Origin: Tetrapyrgos nigripes
Taxonomy: Eukaryota > Basidiomycota > Agaricomycetes > Agaricales > Campanellaceae
Assembly: GCA_013368315.1 (NCBI GenBank)
Contig: JAACJM010000009.1
Location: 310,001 to 374,000 of the forward strand
Direction: 5' to 3'
DNA: 64,000 bases
Below the pieces are notes generated by a model, which saw nothing but the letters and a program-made list of their open reading frames with translations, had not been told where the DNA came from and ran no database searches. The position numbers and the translations under genes are program-made. This document shows, piece after piece, positions 1 to 9,689 of the stretch (position 1 is its first letter; every line of letters starts with the position of its first letter).

Positions 1-2431
1 GTCTCAAACTGCTTCGACATATATCTTACCATCCGCCAGAGTGTAGACAGGAGAGTCGCCGCTGCACTGGGACACGATACTCCCAACTATCGTGTTCTTC
101 ATAGCTGTCCACCATGCTGCTATAAGGTGGGTAGTTTCTAGATGCCTCGCTTTCTTTTTTATCTAATCCCTCTATGATGTATCTTCAGCTCGTGGACGAG
201 GCACCTCTCAAGTTCTCCCGCATGTGGGTCTGTGACGGCAATAATTCACTCCGGTGCATGGGCCCACTCGGCAATCGTCGTGTTGCAGATATGCGTGTAT
301 TCAATGACAGCGACTACTACTTGCCTCGGGAATTTGTCGATCGCTTCGCGAACGAAGTCAAGTCTAGACCCGCCGAACCACGCCAAGCCGATGCCAATCA
401 CAGTGATGATGACATCGAAGATGATGGGCTAGAGGATGGCGGAGACCCCACTGATGGCTCCTCTGAGGCATTTTTGAAGGGATGTACCACGAATTGGAAG
501 GCAGCGGGTGCGGATTCAAAGAAGACAATGTGGAACATTTTCGACGAGACTGGGGTATTTGCTAGTGCTTGCCGCCATGGCTTCATTCTATGGCTTGCTG
601 ATATGGTGAGAAGCGGTGAACTGTGCGTACTCTATCTGTCTCCCTCGGTACCTTCCGTTCATGCCTCCTCTTTTTGCAGCGCAAAATATCCGCTCGCTAT
701 GGTTGCCAAAGCCCTTGAGGTCTTTGATGACGACTGGATTTTGGGATATGATATCGGATGCAGTTTCAGCCAAACCATCAACTCCAGCACACTTGGACCC
801 CGCTTCCATGCACGCAACTGCCGAACATGTGTCAACGCATTCCATGGTTACTCACATAACTTCCTCTGTCAGCTACTCTTCCACCCACTTAACATCATTG
901 GAATGGGCCTCGAAGACCTCGAAACACTTGAACGGATCTTCTCGGCATCTAATCAACTCGCTAGTATCACTCGGTACGCCACAGCCTATCGCCGACGCGT
1001 TCTCATAGACCTTTTCTTCTGCCAGTGGGACCAAGAAAAATATCAAAACCTTGCCCGCATGCTTCACAACAACTACGTCCAGGCACTGGAGACCATTGAG
1101 ATGGAGGGTCGGGATTTGGAGGAGGGTCTGAAGGCTCATGGTCTCACCACCAAGGACCTTGACGATTACTTTGCTGACGAAGCCCAACATTTTCGAGAGC
1201 TGGGTGAAGAACTACCCAAAGATATCCATGCTGTTGCCTACGTCGAACTCCTCCAGAAGTACCGGGACATAACGTGAGTCACTGCTACTCTCAAATTGGA
1301 AATACTAATTGATTACTCCCTAAGCAAGATGCATGAAAACGCCTCCACAGCATTTTGAACCCATACACCCGAGGACTATCAGCCCCTCCTTCCCGCCGAA
1401 TCCTATAATTCCAACCTGTCAAGTACACGGAAGATTGAGACCGCTCGACGCTATCTTTCCGAGAAGCGAGATCAAGTCCACTATGAGCTGGTTCAGCTCA
1501 AGTGCTCTATGAACATTAGTGAAGGTCAGCGCTGGCAGCCTACAGATCCACCATACCTCAAGACTTTGGAATACATGAACGAACGAAAGTACCGACAAGC
1601 ACTTGAGCAGCTGCACAAGCTTGTCATTCAACGCCTGTATGAGTTGCACCGGCTTAATCTTTCTCAGACAGGTAAGTCTCAGTCATTAATTCTACAGTTA
1701 TATCTTAAGATTTCACAGGTTACAAGATGCGCACCCATATCGCCAATGCTTTACAAAAACGATCCAAGGCCATTCGCAAGGCTGTCCAGAGGTACAACAC
1801 TGCTGCGTCGTCACTCAGCCCTCCTCGCCCTACACTTGACTGGCATAAAGTCTCCCACTTCACCTTCCTTGACCAGTTTGGCATCCTCCAGGATTCTCGC
1901 CACACAGTCTTCAACAAGCCCTGGGCTAAGCCCATCATTCGTGAGCTCATGAAGAAGTATCACCGCATCAGCCGAGCCCAGGAGGAGATCGTTCGTTGTA
2001 ATGTGGAATTGCGTCGACTTCACACGTCTATCGTCGACGAGGATGAGCACTTTTCTATCACCCTTACTCAGCTGGAACACGCCGGAAGCCCGATGCTCGG
2101 ACCTGTTCAAGAACATGTGGACCGGCGGCGCCAGGTCAACCTCCTCCTCCTCCAACAAATCAAGGACACCTATCAGCTTAGTGGTTTTTCTGGTGTTCCG
2201 TCTCCAGGATCACGCCGTCATCCTCAACCGGCTGCCTCCTCATCACACGTTGAACTGCCTCTAGAACCATCTACCCCGTCCCACATGGACCCAGACAACT
2301 CATGCGATGATAGGGTCGATGTGGTAGTGTCGGATGACTCAGATGGCGACTGGGAAGACGAGGAGGATGCTGTTCACGAGGGAGTGGGTGCTTTAGTCGA
2401 CTTCATATCGAACTTGTCAGTACATGGTTAG
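1..2431 (+). pseudogene. KDZ-family transposase, 5' end outside window, one in-frame stop
   Basis: This is the catalytic and C-terminal part of a Kyakuja-Dileera-Zisupton (KDZ) transposase, a DDE-type enzyme of large eukaryotic DNA transposons. Exons 1-126, 189-622, 680-1273, 1325-1671 and 1719-2431 join in one frame (738 codons) across canonical introns. Visible family marks are CPPCCYK followed by DEAPLKFS and DGNNS, then DETGVFASACRHG, GYDIGC and GLEDLETLERIFS. The D, D and E of the last three blocks are the likely catalytic triad. The C-terminal part is rich in charged helices and ends in an acidic tail. The reading frame holds one TGA at 1356-1358 just after the fourth splice junction (ASTAF-stop-THTPED), where a Trp codon would fit, so the copy is probably inactive. 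The frame is already open at base 1, so the N-terminus lies to the left of the window. Confidence 0.9.
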
Positions 2432-2518
2432 TTAGCTTTCTTACCACTCTCTCTCTGGTTCTGTTATTATATGTACTTGTGTTGTAGTTCATAAAATTTT
2501 ATTTCAAACAATTATAAT

Positions 2519-2913
2519 CTACCACTTCTCCACATATGAGGCAGTAGTCTGGGTTGCCCCGCTCGCAACCTTCTCTTCATAATATGCATGCGTCTGCTCC
2601 CAGATGAAATCATAAGGTACTCGGTAATATGTCCGAATCCTAGCAGGTTTAAGTCACTACACGCACAGTAACATAAAAAACCACTCACCATCTGTTGCCC
2701 TCAAAGTAGCTCAGTTCATCCACTTTAATCCACACGCCATGCAGGTTGCAGAACACCATTCGTGGGGGAGCAAGGGCAGAGTTACTGGAATGACTTAAGT
2801 GAGTCCTCCACTTCATTGACTATACTAACTCACCATTGATCACAGACAGTCAGAGTGTCTGGGTTGGTCTCTTTTTCACCAGGGAAAGATACGACGCGGG
2901 TCTCCTTCTCCAT
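2519..2913 (-). CDS. Small cysteine-containing protein beside the KDZ transposase
   Basis: A three-exon model (2834-2913, 2689-2784, 2519-2639) gives 98 residues from ATG to TAG with canonical splice sites and exact frame. The protein has a CDQC pair followed by a third Cys and a His in FCNLHGVW, which may form a small zinc site. An aromatic C-terminal part (RTYYRVPYDFIWEQTHAYYEEK) follows. I do not recognise the family. It is convergent with the transposase and only about 90 bp downstream of its stop, on the same strand as the dioxygenase further right. It may be an accessory gene of the element, or the 3' part of a longer gene whose upstream exons I missed. Confidence 0.5.
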
Positions 2914-3067
2914 GCTGTGGACTTGCTCAGAACAACTTACCGAGCTCCTTTTTTAAAGACTTCGGCATTGCACCCTCAAATTATGCCAAGAAATCAATGA
3001 AAATCAAAGTAATATTAGGCGAGACTGCCTATCGATATGGCACATCGGAACCTTGTTGGCCCGTACA

Positions 3068-3586
3068 CTAAGCTTGGCCCTTCTGTCTTTTGGCAAGTCG
3101 TCGCTGACGTTCCTTCCCTGCCAGTATCTCTCTTCTGCTTTCTCGGTACCGCCGCTGCGCTTCCCGATGAGCAGCTCGAAACTCCTCACGTTCCTCTTCC
3201 TCAGTATTTGCCAGGTGTTCACGACGCCTGCAGGGAGAATAGTGAGAGCAAGAAGTCTGAATATATATGCAGTTACATACCTGTCGTTGTGTAGACGAGC
3301 TTCAGCGAGCTTATGAGGCCGATTGCTTCAAGTGAACATGAATATAATGATAGACAAATGAAAAAAAACTGGCCACGCACTGCTGATAAGACTCCTTCAG
3401 CCTACGCTGTCTCTTAACCCGTTTCCGCCACTGCTGCCGCCGTTCCGTGAAATATTCGATGTTGGCAGTACTGTCTTCAGGGAAGGTGTTGGTGAGATAG
3501 TCCTGCTCAGCTTGTCCTTCCAGCCACAGATGAGGCTCTCCGAGCAGCATCTCAATTTGAGTACGAGGTGGTGGAGAAGGAGACAT
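3068..3586 (-). CDS. Small highly charged helical protein, KDZ/TET neighbourhood
   Basis: Exons 3381-3586, 3281-3325 and 3068-3227 join to 136 residues. The first ATG in frame is at 3586; the frame is open a few codons further upstream, but no ATG lies there. The N-terminus reads SPPPRTQIEMLLGEPHLW, then NTFPEDSTANIEYFTERRQQW, and the rest is a long Arg/Glu-rich helix that could form a coiled coil. No enzymatic motif is seen. Introns of 53-55 bp have standard GT-AG ends. The strand is that of the TET/JBP gene, about 0.5 kb to the right. Function is unknown; a DNA-binding or scaffold role is only a guess from its charge. Confidence 0.5.
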
Positions 3587-4120
3587 GTCGGCACTTCCCA
3601 AGGATCAGATGGCCTTCCTCTAAAAAGTATTGTGCCAATGTTCAAGTGTTGAAGAGTCCAAGGGATCTCGATTATCATTAGAATACATACTTACCGAGAT
3701 GTACCACCGCTTAAGAAAATATGCAGAATATCACCACTATAGTGCAGAATATCACCACGCAAATCGAGAGAACAGCTGTATAGCCTTCATAAGAGCCTAA
3801 CCTTTAGAAATGGCAATGTAGAAAGCAGTAAATACACTTACCTGAACATCTGGAGGTTTATTGGATTGCAAGAACAGTGATGCACAAAGACACATAGTTT
3901 GACACGAAAGAGAACACTATTACACAGTGCATACATACTCAAGGGTTACATGCATTTTGAGCAACATGCAAAAACATTGCAAAGCACACCCGTGCTCTCT
4001 TCAATGTCGTTTGACAATACCTTACAATACTTAGGCGTGGTTTCGAACATTCATATCCAAATAGTATCAAGAAAGTATAGATATTTCAAGTGACTACCTA
4101 TTTACATGCACGCAAGATAT
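3587..4120. other. Intergenic stretch, no gene seen
   Basis: AT-rich sequence between the small charged gene and the 3' end of the dioxygenase gene. A short direct repeat (two copies of an 18-base unit containing gcagaatatcaccac, near 3722-3757) is the only structure noticed. It probably includes the 3' untranslated region of the dioxygenase gene. Confidence 0.4.
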
Positions 4121-5710
4121 CTAAAGCTCTGTAACTGTAGAAAACAAACTGACCCCCATGTTCCAGCGCTCCCTCGCTGCCACTCGAAACTTGGCCATTT
4201 GTTCTTCATCAAAAGAGTCGAGTAGAGACTCCTGCATTTGGAACCCATTGTCGACCCAGCGAAACAAACCACCGGCGGTGTACTGAGTAAAAGAGAACCG
4301 GTGCTCATGTCTTTGGATGTGGGTGTTGGAGTGGCGACAAACGCCGGAAGGGATGAATATGAGGGAGCCAGGAGGAAAGCGAATGACGAGTTTGAGATCC
4401 CATAATACAAGGTGCCCCCCTTTGCACGGATCAAAGTCTCCCAGAGCATAAATACCACACCATCCAAAAGGAAGGTTGCCGTAATCGACGTGGTCACAGC
4501 AGATGGACTGCTTGCCTAGATTCCATGCTGCCCCTGCAAATACGCTGTTGGGAAACAAACGTGCAAGTTTCTTGTCGTGGTCAAGAACAGAGGTGAGGTA
4601 TTTGTGGTAGTAGTTTTGTAAACGAGGTGCCCAGGTCTGGAAGACTCCTGCTCAAACAATCAGCTGGATATCGGCGAGATGTCACAGAAGAGAGACATAC
4701 CATCGGCAAAGCCAACCATCCTCTCAAAGGCCCAGTGTGAGGTCAGACTCTTGATGACGGTGCAATTTGCTTTATTTTGGCTGAGAACGCCTGGGTGAGT
4801 TTGGCCGCCTCCATGAGAAACACCAGCTGACAGAGCAGGATGTTTGCCCCGTCTGTGGTTTCTTTGCTTTTGAGTAAAAACACACTCTCAGCGAGCTCTG
4901 GTGAGGGCGTTTGTTGCTGCATCGGTACATGCGTCCCAGGTCGGATCGTTATCGGGCCGGCCTGCGAGAAGTGCGAAGATGACGCCATTCTTGTCGACAA
5001 TCGGAGTAGCTGTGCTGGGGAGGTAATGAGCACAAGAACAAGACCAAAAAGAATGTGACGTACCGGCCATCCCACTTGTACTCTTGAAATTGGAACTTTG
5101 AGTCTGCTCCCACCAAATCCTCTAACGAATACCCATCATCACTGTAAAGACCCCCTTTCCGCTGACCTGTGTAACCAGTTGATGTAGGTGATGAATCAGT
5201 CTGGAAGCAAAATGGCGGGCTGATCTGGGGAGCATGTTTGACGTGCTTGGCGTTGGCGGAAGAAGGTGGAGCTTTCACTTTGAACTGTTTCCCTTTCTTC
5301 TTCTTGTTCTTTTTGCTTTGAGCTTTGCTGCGCTTCCATTTATGCTCGCGGGTTTTTGAGAGTGCGGGTCCTTCAACAGGCTCCTCGTCATCAAGAGCTG
5401 GAGCAGGACACTCGTAGACCGGTGACGGTGACGACGGCCGAGAAGATAGCGGAGTTGTTGTCAATGAGGACAGAGGTGAGAGGAATAGAAGGGAGTCGCT
5501 GGGCGTATCTTCATTGTCGTAGTGATCACGTGTACCCTCCTCCAGTACGAATTCGAAAAGAGTACTGGGGTAGCAAAAGTTGGGTACAGATAGCCCAGTC
5601 CTCTCGTCCCTCGAGCTTTCGGCAGTGTCTGTAGATACATTAGCTAACAAGTAACAGCTGGAATATGAAAAGTTGCAAAAGGACATCTTCCCCATTGCCT
5701 GTAGGTTCAT
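4121..5710 (-). pseudogene. TET/JBP-like 2-oxoglutarate Fe(II) dioxygenase with one in-frame stop
   Basis: Exons 5064-5710, 4701-5014 and 4121-4647 join to 496 codons in a single frame. The N-terminal third is disordered with a Lys-rich stretch. Then come WDGRTATPIVDKNGVIFALL, AGRPDND, HRRGKHPALSAGVSHGGGQ and the double-stranded beta-helix core. The core holds the iron HxD in DHVDYGN (H373, D375), LPFGWC, GGHLVLWDLKL, a second iron His in CRHSNTH, and the 2-oxoglutarate Arg in HRFSFTQYTAGG. This layout is that of the TET/JBP family that oxidises 5-methylpyrimidines in DNA. A TGA at 4888-4890, between TRAR and ECVF, interrupts the frame before the iron-binding core. No splice pair removes it, so this copy is probably dead unless the stop is a sequencing error. 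The start at 5710 is the first ATG, but an upstream exon is possible. Confidence 0.82.
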
Positions 5711-6075
5711 CAGTCAACTACATCCTGTACAACTTCAGAATTCCTGTTGCGCAGGTATTCAAAGCGTACAGTTTACATTGCTCTGATTATGCTGCAGGAA
5801 CTGGGTAGGAAGGTGGGTAGGAAGGGTAAAATCACAACGGCTTGGGGACTGCATACATCAAAAGGTAAGGACTAATGGAAACACTCACCAATATGTGGAT
5901 CCCTGGGGCCTAACAGCCTGATCTTCATGGTGTGGTCTTCATGGCAGTTGGACTTGAGATGTGAAGACGTGAAGAAAGGCTGATGAAAGCTTGATATCAC
6001 TTGTATGTAATTTGCGCGTGACTGTTATAAAATTAGCTCACTTGATTATCATTATTTTCAAATCTCCTTTTCACC
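5711..6075. promoter_or_regulatory. Divergent intergenic region between dioxygenase and right-hand gene
   Basis: About 365 bp between the 5' end of the dioxygenase gene (minus) and the next gene (plus). It would have to hold promoters for both. No clear TATA box or operator-like repeat was recognised. Confidence 0.3.
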
Positions 6076-7163
6076 ATGGGTCGTGTAGCGTGTATCGGTC
6101 CTCAAGGTAGCTCGATGACCAAGCCACCGTTGTGTATTGGGGTCAGCAATAAAATGTGCCTGTCTGGTTTATTAAATATGTATATTTTACTGACATTCTT
6201 CCAGGCAATGGCATCCTGGGGGTCTTCCGGGATCGCACCCACCCTTCCCTATGATGATCAAGTGTGATACAGATGACGAAGCCCAGCACATCTTCAGCAC
6301 CTTGCAGCCTTGGGTCCTATCCCATCTCACCCTCGCGCCGTCTGCGCTGATTAGCGCATTGCAGTCCGACACGCAAATTCAAGAGCTTGGTCGGTTGCTT
6401 GACAGGGTGCCAGGTCAGAAATATTGGGCTGTGCGTCTGGGAAGCAGGGTAGGCCTGTACCTTAACAGGTGAGTGTCAGTGTTTGCTTTTCAAGACGGTA
6501 CTGAAGACAGTACTCACAGTGTTGATGCCGTTGAGACATTGGACCAGTCTTCCAAGGACAAATTCCGCCGTGCATTCGTCTTTGACACCTTCGTGGCAGG
6601 TTTTTGCGGGATGATTACTCAGGATCCTGTCGCCCTTGAGCCCACTCACGATTACAATCCTGTCACAGACCTGGATGAGGCTACACGCCTTCGCAGTGAA
6701 GGTCTCGCATATAGGCCACAACTGTCATTGAATCCACATCCGACTGGTCCACCTCCTCCACCACTTGCAGCTCAATCACCCTCCCAGTCTAACCAGTCTA
6801 ACGTCGTCAATTTTTCGGTGGAGATTGTTCCTCCCGGTATGTGGCTTTGTTATCTTGTTCCAAGCATTGGAGCACGCGTTGATGAACACATGGTTTGCAG
6901 GTACACCCTCGCGGCGCAGCCCACTTATCTTGTGCCAAGAAACCCCAACCAGAGGGCCAGCGTCCAGTTGTACTCCTAGACGGCAGGGAACTCCGGCAAC
7001 CCCTGGGCGTACTTTGAACCGGGAGCTTGGCTACTGGCCCAGACGGTACTTGCTGAGTCATGGCTATTCCAACGATGAAGTGGCGGACATTGAGGAACTT
7101 TTTGATGGTGGTGGGTGGTGTCGAGGACTTCAGGGCTGGTTTGGAAGACGTCATCTCTGTTAG
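6076..7163 (+). CDS. Hypothetical protein with possible RNase-H-N/viroplasmin-like segments
   Basis: A spliced gene with exons at about 6076-6106, 6205-6468, 6520-6836 and 6901-7163. The middle part reads CDTDDEAQHIFSTLQPW and then QKYWAVRLGSRVGLYLN followed by FDTFVAGFCGMI. This resembles the two short segments of RNase H1 N-terminal (viroplasmin-like) domains (YAVRxGRxxGIY, then a later TF-A-ALAYM-type helix). A Pro-rich linker and a basic/acidic tail (LSHGYSNDEVADIEELFDGG) follow. The join of the first two exons does not keep frame: the stretch encoding GNGILGVFRDRTHPSL runs in a different frame from the following MMIKCDTDDEAQ, so either a frameshift near 6245 or a wrong first exon is present. 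Function is unknown; position suggests it belongs to the KDZ element. Confidence 0.42.
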
Positions 7164-7326
7164 TGACTCTGTGGCAGATTTTCTCTGGGCGATGATTCAA
7201 GATATGTAGTCGTAGTCACTCGATAACTTCGGATGTAAATTTGATCTATTGGCAAAATCCTAATATCCTGGACAAATCATAATCTAAGAAAAAAAATTAA
7301 CCCGGTCAGCCACCATCACCCCGCCA

Positions 7327-9078
7327 ATGGGAAGAAAAAAATCCAACGTACAATTCGAACGTCTGCTACGTGCTGCTCAGAAACATGGCACTTCCACCCG
7401 TCAAGCAACCAGATACCGTGCACCTCACAAGCCCATCAAGTTGACGAATGCGCAGAAGGCCGAGAAGAAACAAGCGCGGGACCTTGACAACAAACGGTTC
7501 AAAACCCGTCTTCAACAGGCCTTCACTGTAATCCAGAGCGAAGCATTGGCGATGAAGGAGGAGTTTGGAAAGCACGACCTCCAGTGGTACATGGATACGA
7601 TCATGCAATCCTACCGTCTCAAGCAAAAGAAGAAAAGTCTGGGTCCCTTTCAAGCATTTGTTCATAAGCAAATGGCGGAGATAAATTCTGGTGAGTAAAT
7701 CACACTTACCATGAGAACGCTTAAATAATGTGAAAGCGTTGCAGCGATTCCTGAGGGCCAGCCACGAAAGAAGATTCCCGAATGTATCCGTGAGATTGGG
7801 GAGAAATGGAGGTCTATGTCGAAGGATGAGCAAAGAGAGATGACGGCGGAGGTATTGGCAACTCTGGAGGTGAATAGAGAGAACCGTGAGCTTGGCGGCC
7901 ACAATAGTTCTTTGAGTGCATTCCATGACATCCGCACTACCATGGAGGATGCTAAACTATTGGTGAGCTCGAATTGGAGTTGCTCACTATGCAGTGGAAA
8001 CTAATTTTACGTACCTGAAGCTTCAACGCCTTAATGCTCGCACTGGTGCAGAGGCTGCTATTATGGTTGTGCGCTCCAACCAGGACCATTTCAACCCGCC
8101 GGATGCATGGGTCACAAGCGATCGGGTGGAATCGTTCTTTGAGATGGTGTTTAAGGAGAATCCAAATGCGATTGCTACTCGATTGGAGGGTTACTGCATT
8201 GCTGGCATTGACGGTGAGAGTTATGCTTACCTGATGGAATAGATACTGACAGACCTGGTCTAGGATGTACCCGCAATTACGTCCAAGAAACTGTTGAGAT
8301 GAAAAAGGAGTTAGTGCAAATCATCAACCAGAAACTTCGTGAGTATCAACTATCTGAAATGTGTTGCTGGTACTCACAATATGTTGCAGAGGCGGCTGCA
8401 GGCAAGACGAGGATCCCAAGGATGTATTACAAGAACTTTGATGAACACATCACTAAGAACCACGGGTTGAAATTGATTGGGTGGCCACTAGAGAAGTTCT
8501 GCAGTCCTAGTGAGCTTGCGACACGCGTTGAGATCCAGATCGTGAAGAATGCCTTCGAATCAGATACGGCGCACTTCTACAAGATGTCCAACGTCGAACG
8601 GAAGGAATGGGAGGAGAAGCGATTCCAGGCAGCGTTGCAACAGACAGAACAACAGAGTCAGACCGTAGTTGCGCCTGCTGCATTACCTGGGACTGCGGCT
8701 ATTGTTCTGCCTCCAGCCTCAGGTTTGTCTCAACCAGATCTGTCCGAACCAACACCCATGCCGTCTCCTGGTGAAGATACAAACCCAACCCAGGTGACGA
8801 CACTCGTGCCTGGTCCAGACGCAAACCCAATCCCAGTGACAACGCCCATGCCTGTGGTACCGGCTTCAAACACAGCCCCAGTCATAGCCCAGCCAGCGAA
8901 GCGTGGAAGGAAGCGTAAAGCGTTTGGTGACACGTCTGGGGCAGAAGTGAACTTCGTAAACTCAATGTCGGTGACGGGACCAAATGGCACAGTCTTGTTG
9001 CAGAAGCCCGCACGTAAACAGAGATCGGACAAAGGTGTGAAAAGAAAGGTGTCCAACGGCAATGAGATGGGGGAATAA
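7327..9078 (+). CDS. HMG-like DNA-binding protein of the KDZ/TET neighbourhood
   Basis: Exons 7327-7690, 7745-7962, 8021-8213, 8264-8338 and 8390-9078 sum to 513 codons (512 aa) with canonical introns. The N-terminus is strongly basic (GRKKSN, KAEKKQARDLDNKRFKTR). Residues about 105-155 read LGPFQAFVHKQMAEIN then PRKKIPECIREIGEKW and RSMSKDEQREM, which looks like a divergent HMG box. A conserved-looking middle region follows (NARTGAEAAIMVVRSNQDHFN, GLKLIGWPLEKFCSPSEL). The last 150 residues are Pro/Thr-rich with repeated PMP/NPI units and two basic stretches (KRGRKRKAFG, KRKV) that could be nuclear signals. No lesion is seen, unlike in the transposase and dioxygenase. A chromatin or DNA-binding role is inferred from the fold resemblance only. 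Confidence 0.6.
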
Positions 9079-9650
9079 GGTTAACGTCGTTCCTGTATTT
9101 AATGGCTGGTATAGATGTGTTTATGTCTAGCTATTAATATATAGCTATATTATGTTAGTGAAGCCTTACAGATGAAGGAACGGTTACGCACTTCGAACTT
9201 GAAGGGACTTGTAGATTTTTGGGTCAACGGATGACATAAGCAAGCGGGAGAATAGCCGAGGGGACAGCGAGCAAAGCCATTTGATGGCGGTAGCAGATGG
9301 TGGGAAGGCGTAGAGTCGGGGATATGAGCTAAGCGGCGGGAGGGACAAGCGAGGACGATGAGCGGACAGTGATGATGGTCGAGTTGATAGATGAGGATGG
9401 TGTGATGGTGACGTCGTGAGAGTGGAATGGCATCTCGGACTTGATAGCCTCCCGGGTCTTACTTCCGAAGAGGCCTCACGACATACCTACCTCATATGGG
9501 AGGAGGTGAGTGTTTCCTTACAAGAGAAATCTAGGAATTATTCATGGAATTACTGGCAGTGTCTGAGATATAACAACTTTCGTTACTGTACTAATGCCAC
9601 AACCGGGTAGGCTTGGCATGTCTATGCACGTGAAGAGTTGTGATGTTGAG
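9079..9650. other. Intergenic, purine-rich, possible right edge of the KDZ element
   Basis: From 9225 to 9420 the plus strand is rich in G and A with many gatgg/gcgg runs; no reading frame or family was recognised. If the KDZ element ends in this window, its right terminus could lie here, but its left terminus is outside, so terminal repeats cannot be matched. Confidence 0.3.
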
Positions 9651-9689
9651 GTGCCACTCTTTCTTTCTTCCTTCCTTCCGTTCTTGTGA

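Follow-up and report, generated by a model that had tools for sequence, protein, structure and literature searches.

A six-gene transposable element of the KDZ class spans the start of a 64,000-nucleotide stretch of the Tetrapyrgos nigripes genome (contig C8, positions 310001-374000), referred to here as the window; C-numbers denote contigs of the genome studied (98.5 Mb in 587 contigs). Between long inverted repeats the element carries genes for a KDZ transposase, a TET-like dioxygenase and four partner proteins (CYS, CHG, RNH and HMG-like), and this unit recurs in the genome, each of the six genes having a dN/dS ratio well under 1. Some copies at different sites are nearly identical, and decay of the copies is biased toward CpG. 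The explanation we favor, with somewhat better than even confidence, is that the predicted TET-fold dioxygenase oxidizes the 5-methylcytosine (5mC) of the element, sustains its transcription and slows its decay at CpG; that is, we infer for the enzyme a role against host methylation.

Fungal transposons with TET enzymes have been published. To the question of what these enzymes do for the transposons, this one genome brings a testable set: full elements of fixed content, near-identical pairs, short derivatives, sister copies in decay, and a record of mutations suggestive of methylation. Its elements also put names to conserved partner genes that a transposase-TET pair alone would not suggest; for one of them the search of a very large protein database yielded no relative.

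Boundaries and gene layout of the element

The 10 kb directly upstream of the window (L003, in which L003:9010 corresponds to C8:309010) was added to the analysis because the window begins within the KDZ gene. The element measures 11,147 bp (C8:308507-319653); its left end lies 1,493 bp before the window, its right end at window position 9653, and all genes named in the original prediction lie inside it. Its left terminal inverted repeat, of 455 bp, is upstream of the window at C8:308507-308961 (L003:8507-8961), and the right one, of 464 bp, occupies window 9190..9653 on the minus strand; the two are inverted copies with 91% identity over 474 alignment columns, 29 of them gap columns. At its termini the element has the sequence CACCTCAAC...GTTGAGGTG, with CCACTCTT, the target-site duplication of 8 bp, directly adjoining both ends (left copy at L003:8499-8506, right copy at window 9654..9661). 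It had been proposed that element ends be sought outside the first 9.1 kb, and the long repeats and target duplication are what that search found. With the joined flanks as query, no insertion-free allele of the site was found in the assembly; apart from the two positions they came from, the flanks match nothing but a diverged stretch of right flank at C8:363649.

Within these ends the KDZ gene reads rightwards, the dioxygenase, CHG and CYS genes follow one another leftwards, and RNH and the HMG-like gene read rightwards, with the starts of the dioxygenase and RNH genes head to head, 147 bp apart. The window copy has two in-frame stops, one each in the KDZ and dioxygenase genes, and a frameshift in RNH; CYS, CHG and the HMG-like gene are open. 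Because of these lesions the window copy has probably lost its autonomy. Another element in the genome, analyzed with the same spliced alignment, has all six genes open.

The KDZ transposase

The transposase gene covers window 1..2431 on the plus strand and starts 991 bases upstream of the window at C8:309010; its eight exons encode 1009 amino acids, interrupted by a single in-frame TGA at window 1356-1358. The spliced protein matches Pfam PF18758 over the whole profile (1-217 of 217, E=1.3e-76), in agreement with the KDZ assignment made earlier from the window, which lacks the 5' part of the gene. At the N-terminus a match to the Cys cluster CxC1 scores 17.6 bits, with the cut-off at 26.9.

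Zisupton elements have 8-bp duplications and inverted repeats, and both features are present here. Kyakuja elements are described, for two Laccaria families, with 7-bp duplications and without inverted repeats (Kojima 2025, PMC12730594), whereas the window element has an 8-bp duplication and repeats of 455 and 464 bp. Membership in Kyakuja was rejected on these two features, duplication length and presence of inverted repeats. The CA..TG termini of Kyakuja are also those of the window element.

The four partner genes

CYS (window 2519..2913, minus strand) is a 98-amino acid protein from three exons with a conserved CxxC...CxxH, and CHG, a charged protein of 136 amino acids, also has three exons (window 3068..3586, minus strand). 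Both had been put forward as small novel genes, and both are borne out by reading frames and splice sites conserved across other elements. A protein search with a three-sequence CYS alignment returned 51 candidates, none at E<=0.1. In Pfam, CYS had one weak match, at E=0.15, and CHG had none.

RNH (window 6076..7209, plus strand) is a conserved gene of about 330 amino acids, with its frameshift near 7107. It keeps a YWxVRLG...GxY block that by eye resembles the N-terminal domain of RNase H1. The earlier RNase-H-N-like gene stands as a gene, but its label was not confirmed and has no profile support: RNH matched neither Pfam PF01693 (Cauli_VI) nor a solved RNase H1 domain, its Pfam matches being weak and unrelated, and it was absent among the matches of a PF01693 profile search of the genome. 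A single-sequence fold of its relative gave a poor model (pLDDT 40). At four of the seven PF01693 loci (C165, C89, C45 and C557), however, a KDZ match is no more than about 4 kb away; three of these four are under the PF01693 cut-off, and they may be copies of one element.

The HMG-like gene (window 7327..9078, plus strand) has five exons and an open frame of 512 amino acids. This spliced frame upholds the gene, and again the name fares less well. Matches to Pfam HMG_box_2 (E=0.014 and 0.0086) are under the cut-off, so that no HMG box above it was found, the scores reaching at most 17.2 bits against 22.4, in two of three members. One member instead matches Leu_Phe_trans at 3.2e-5, for which we have no explanation. 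Profiles of RNH and of the HMG-like protein found no support among solved structures, with one chance match.

The TET-like dioxygenase

The dioxygenase gene occupies window 4121..5928 on the minus strand, in a homology model of four exons, and its catalytic domain is preceded by a single in-frame TGA (4890-4888); its first exons, as well as some RNH splice sites, were modeled by homology without transcripts. A TET/JBP-like dioxygenase had been predicted from HxD...H and an Arg, and the gene indeed keeps HxD, the distal H and the Arg. For a relative with 63% identity (P0001), the AlphaFold2 model predicts a TET-type double-stranded beta-helix with HxD..H..R. In the fold comparison TETs outscore the FTO, AlkB and PHD families, a difference that alone is no ground for dismissing the latter.

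Sequence profiles recognize the family poorly. The window dioxygenase matched no Pfam family, Tet_JBP included, and 6 of 68 family members match Tet_JBP at E<=0.01. Dioxygenase profile A1 gave 15 matches at E<=10 among PDB sequences, none of them a TET; the best is a capsid protein (0.00019), and the three alignments shown fall outside the catalytic domain. A single-exon query against PDB gave chance matches.

Protein relatives number 525, and the named ones among the best 120 of them come from mushroom-forming fungi; the closest among those 120 is VKT23_014056 of Stygiomarasmius scandens (63%). The sole relative found for RNH, VKT23_014055 (45%), is from the same species. A contig size of 522,027 is given for both, and the consecutive locus tags suggest that the two are neighboring genes; the comparison with S. 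scandens covered these two genes.

In an ungapped count the HxD Asp is present in 68 of 68 family members, the residue at +5 of the HxD His is Asn in 67 of 68, and that at +11 is Cys in 68 of 68. The residue at +5 bears on a rather unlikely alternative, namely that the enzyme yields a stable modified base (oxidized 5mC, a CMD1-like adduct or oxidized 6mA) which does not lead to demethylation and instead marks the element for the transposase or alters transcription. The Asn at +5, the residue that in TET2 contacts 5mC, argues against it, as does the Pfam survey of the six genes, in which no glycosyltransferase or similar partner was recognized.

In transposon TETs of the AG type, position +5 counted from the HxD His holds Gly or Ser and position +11 holds Asp; in the PE type HxE replaces HxD (Kojima, PMC12730594). 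The dioxygenase was rejected as AG type on its Asn and Cys and as PE type on its HxD. CcTET of Coprinopsis cinerea (7w5p, 8jkk, 7vpn), 11% identical to the dioxygenase, has Gly331 at +5 and Asp337 at +11, where the present family has Asn and Cys.

Recurrence and selective constraint

All counts of genome matches are lower bounds. The right repeat has at least 40 matches in the genome. Elements with paired ends occur on C404 (11,203 bp), C282 (11,201 bp), C415 (13,765 bp) and C5 (8,769 bp), with short ones of 2,246-3,136 bp on C70, C7, C204, C28, C78 and C36. None of the six proteins matched in the short elements, which, among the matches listed, resemble the DNA of the full elements at the ends (C7 and parts of C36, C28 and C70). 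In a comparison by eye, an exact 8-bp duplication flanks 7 of the 10 elements with both ends readable (C8, C36, C7, C28, C282, C415 and C78); that of C404 is displaced by one base, and C204 and C5 are without a clear one.

The C404 and C282 elements match all six proteins with order and orientation kept. The C415 element, of which about 6 kb of the middle is not covered, has the HMG-like gene, RNH, dioxygenase, CHG, CYS and the KDZ N-terminus in the same order. The idea that the neighbors of the transposase are cargo of one element is thus supported by the same order in three other elements: at other KDZ loci of this genome they were found within inverted repeats of the same kind. Neither synteny of these neighbors without a KDZ element nor their absence beside all other KDZ copies was seen in this genome. 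C505 ends in the 3' part of the HMG-like gene plus the repeat; this stretch shares 99.3% identity with the window copy and has a different flank.

Matches were merged by hand into at least 80 dioxygenase loci (96 matches), 12 HMG-like (43), 9 RNH (17), 11 CHG (15) and 4 CYS (10). Within 15-20 kb of eleven of the 12 HMG-like loci there is a match to KDZ, the dioxygenase or the repeat; the twelfth, C169, is accompanied by RNH. For nine of the 11 CHG loci the listed KDZ matches include one no more than 15 kb away, and four of these nine (C324, C22, C24 and C344) are without a dioxygenase match within 20 kb.

Constraint was estimated by the Nei-Gojobori method between the C8, C404 and C282 elements. 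The dN/dS ratios, which are rough because dS is 0.76-2.23 and partly near saturation, are 0.10-0.15 for KDZ, 0.10-0.16 for the dioxygenase, 0.15-0.19 for the HMG-like gene, 0.22-0.25 for RNH, 0.18-0.26 for CHG and 0.23-0.38 for CYS. Within the elements, then, the dioxygenase is as constrained as the transposase, which weighs against a view that we regard as improbable, that the dioxygenase is chiefly a host gene family which KDZ elements carry without using. In favor of that view, the listed KDZ matches all lie more than 15 kb from 52 of the 80 dioxygenase loci. The other 28 have one within that distance, against 3.5 expected under a uniform placement that repeats do not obey, and this linkage is underestimated because the distances used 148 of the 150 listed KDZ matches out of a total of 173. 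There is very little chance that the cluster is a fortuitous neighborhood or was put together from insertions nested in one another. The family does include nested and rearranged elements, as C415 is 2.6 kb longer than its sister elements and C5 has its gene order rearranged, but a single pair of inverted repeats and a target duplication enclose all six genes, and their order, repeated in three other elements, led us to reject chance neighbors.

Decay at CpG sites

The C404 and C415 elements align over 5,661 columns with 93.3% identity. In one direction C-to-T changes affect 113 of 374 CpG, 55 of 904 CpA, 19 of 791 CpT and 13 of 608 CpC; in the other they affect 38 of 225, 48 of 966, 21 of 817 and 9 of 565, respectively. 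The CpG observed/expected ratio is 0.39 for the C415 stretch, 0.63 for C404, 0.75 for C8 and 0.80 for C282, and 0.82-0.88 for neighboring DNA. The same bias appears between near-identical copies. The C282 and C180 copies, in different flanks, differ at four sites over about 1.85 kb of element, and the window copy and C505 at four sites over about 1.0 kb (plus three gap columns); in both pairs all four are CpG transitions. A fifth mismatch between C282 and C180 lies just outside the repeat. Among short elements the share of CpG transitions is 7/14, 30/46, 30/55 and 33/60, and for the left against the right repeat of the window copy it is 5/13.

Judged by these substitutions, the copies lose CpG in the manner of methylated DNA, in the pattern that deamination of 5mC would leave; the pattern speaks for methylation and is silent on any opposition to it by the dioxygenase. 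One host duplicate pair in the window served as control and has 31 CpG transitions among 136 changes, against 149 among 378 for C404/C415 (Fisher p=0.0005); since the host pair has them too, part of the footprint may be genome-wide. Repeats of Marasmius oreades are CpG-methylated (PMC9674265), with which the CpG record of the elements agrees. It contrasts with the statement by Kojima, citing other work, that hypermutation was not detected in Agaricomycotina (PMC12730594).

Proposed role and relation to known systems

In the explanation favored here, the host likely places 5mC on the element, and the dioxygenase, if active, would oxidize it, acting on the element's own DNA. This oxidation is predicted to keep the element transcribed and to slow its decay at CpG, so that the element would likely evade silencing by methylation. 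The KDZ protein would cut at the repeats, and CYS, CHG, RNH and the HMG-like protein may be nucleic-acid-binding helpers that bring the transposase or the oxidase to the element. Any such protection is incomplete, because the elements still decay at CpG. We count against this explanation that the window dioxygenase has no Pfam family, that its +5 and +11 residues are unlike those of CcTET, that the 52 dioxygenase loci mentioned above stand apart from listed KDZ matches, and that the window copy is broken.

A bolder version, which we offer tentatively, is that the dioxygenase is a fourth kind of transposon TET, outside AG and PE, that the four partner proteins steer 5mC oxidation to the element's own repeats, and that copies losing this contest become CpG-stripped fossils. 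If true, this would be a self-contained anti-silencing transposon, each copy of which survives only while it outruns CpG methylation.

Iyer and colleagues are said to have described, in 2014, KDZ elements in which TET/JBP is joined by a divergent HMG protein, along with the KDZ-TET linkage and the escape hypothesis; the window element likewise holds transposase, TET/JBP and HMG-like genes together. TET+ Kyakuja and Zisupton elements of Agaricomycetes, the linkage and the escape hypothesis are published (Kojima 2025, PMC12730594), and the window element resembles them in uniting KDZ transposase and TET/JBP dioxygenase in one element. The terms "HMG" and "RNase H" are absent from the main text of that paper, as far as it was available. 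The listed titles and abstract beginnings from the KDZ/TET transposon literature give no pointer to CYS, CHG or RNH cargo, which leaves absence from print unproven. Within the reach of these searches, the full element, with its six genes, long repeats and 8-bp duplications, is new. The same holds for the cargo genes CYS, CHG and RNH, for the type of dioxygenase and for the record of decay at CpG. A functional parallel is found in the plant Vandal elements, which encode their own anti-silencing protein, a sequence-specific regulator (PMC12730594); there too a transposon gene acts against the silencing of its own element, although the Vandal protein is unrelated and is not an oxidase.

Possible companions of the KDZ transposase

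The gene for the small charged protein CHG may be a more widespread companion of KDZ transposases than the dioxygenase gene, because on four contigs of the assembly (C324, C22, C24 and C344) KDZ matches adjoin CHG with no dioxygenase match within 20 kb. Matches to PF01693 (RNase H1 N-terminal) lie at most about 4 kb from KDZ matches on contigs C165, C89, C45 and C557, and three of these four KDZ-adjoining matches score below the cut-off. An AG-like dioxygenase exon resembling the Coprinopsis cinerea TET (CcTET) is found at C284:50588-51019 (L001); it carries Gly at position +5 of the HxD motif and Asp at +11, and the closest KDZ match among the matches listed is about 13 kb away.

A possible rearrangement and probable or evident duplicates

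An 8.8-kb relative of the element occupies C5:476437-485205 (L024, L026), where protein matches in the genome place HMG-like and RNH sequences at each end, in opposite orientation, with a dioxygenase match between the two ends and no KDZ match among the matches listed. From this arrangement of sequence, the locus is possibly an inverted-duplication derivative. An identical element end, together with its shared flank, is present on two contigs, at C404:20995 and C67:379781; the two show no base mismatch across 3,424 aligned columns and are likely a duplicated or overlapping assembly piece rather than two insertions.

Duplicated genes occur in the window at 51.9-53.4 kb and 55.3-56.8 kb, and also at about 10.2-12.7 kb; named by eye, they look like FAD-dependent (berberine-bridge-type) oxidases. 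The copies at 51.9-53.4 kb and 55.3-56.8 kb, which are 91% identical, served as the host control pair for CpG changes.
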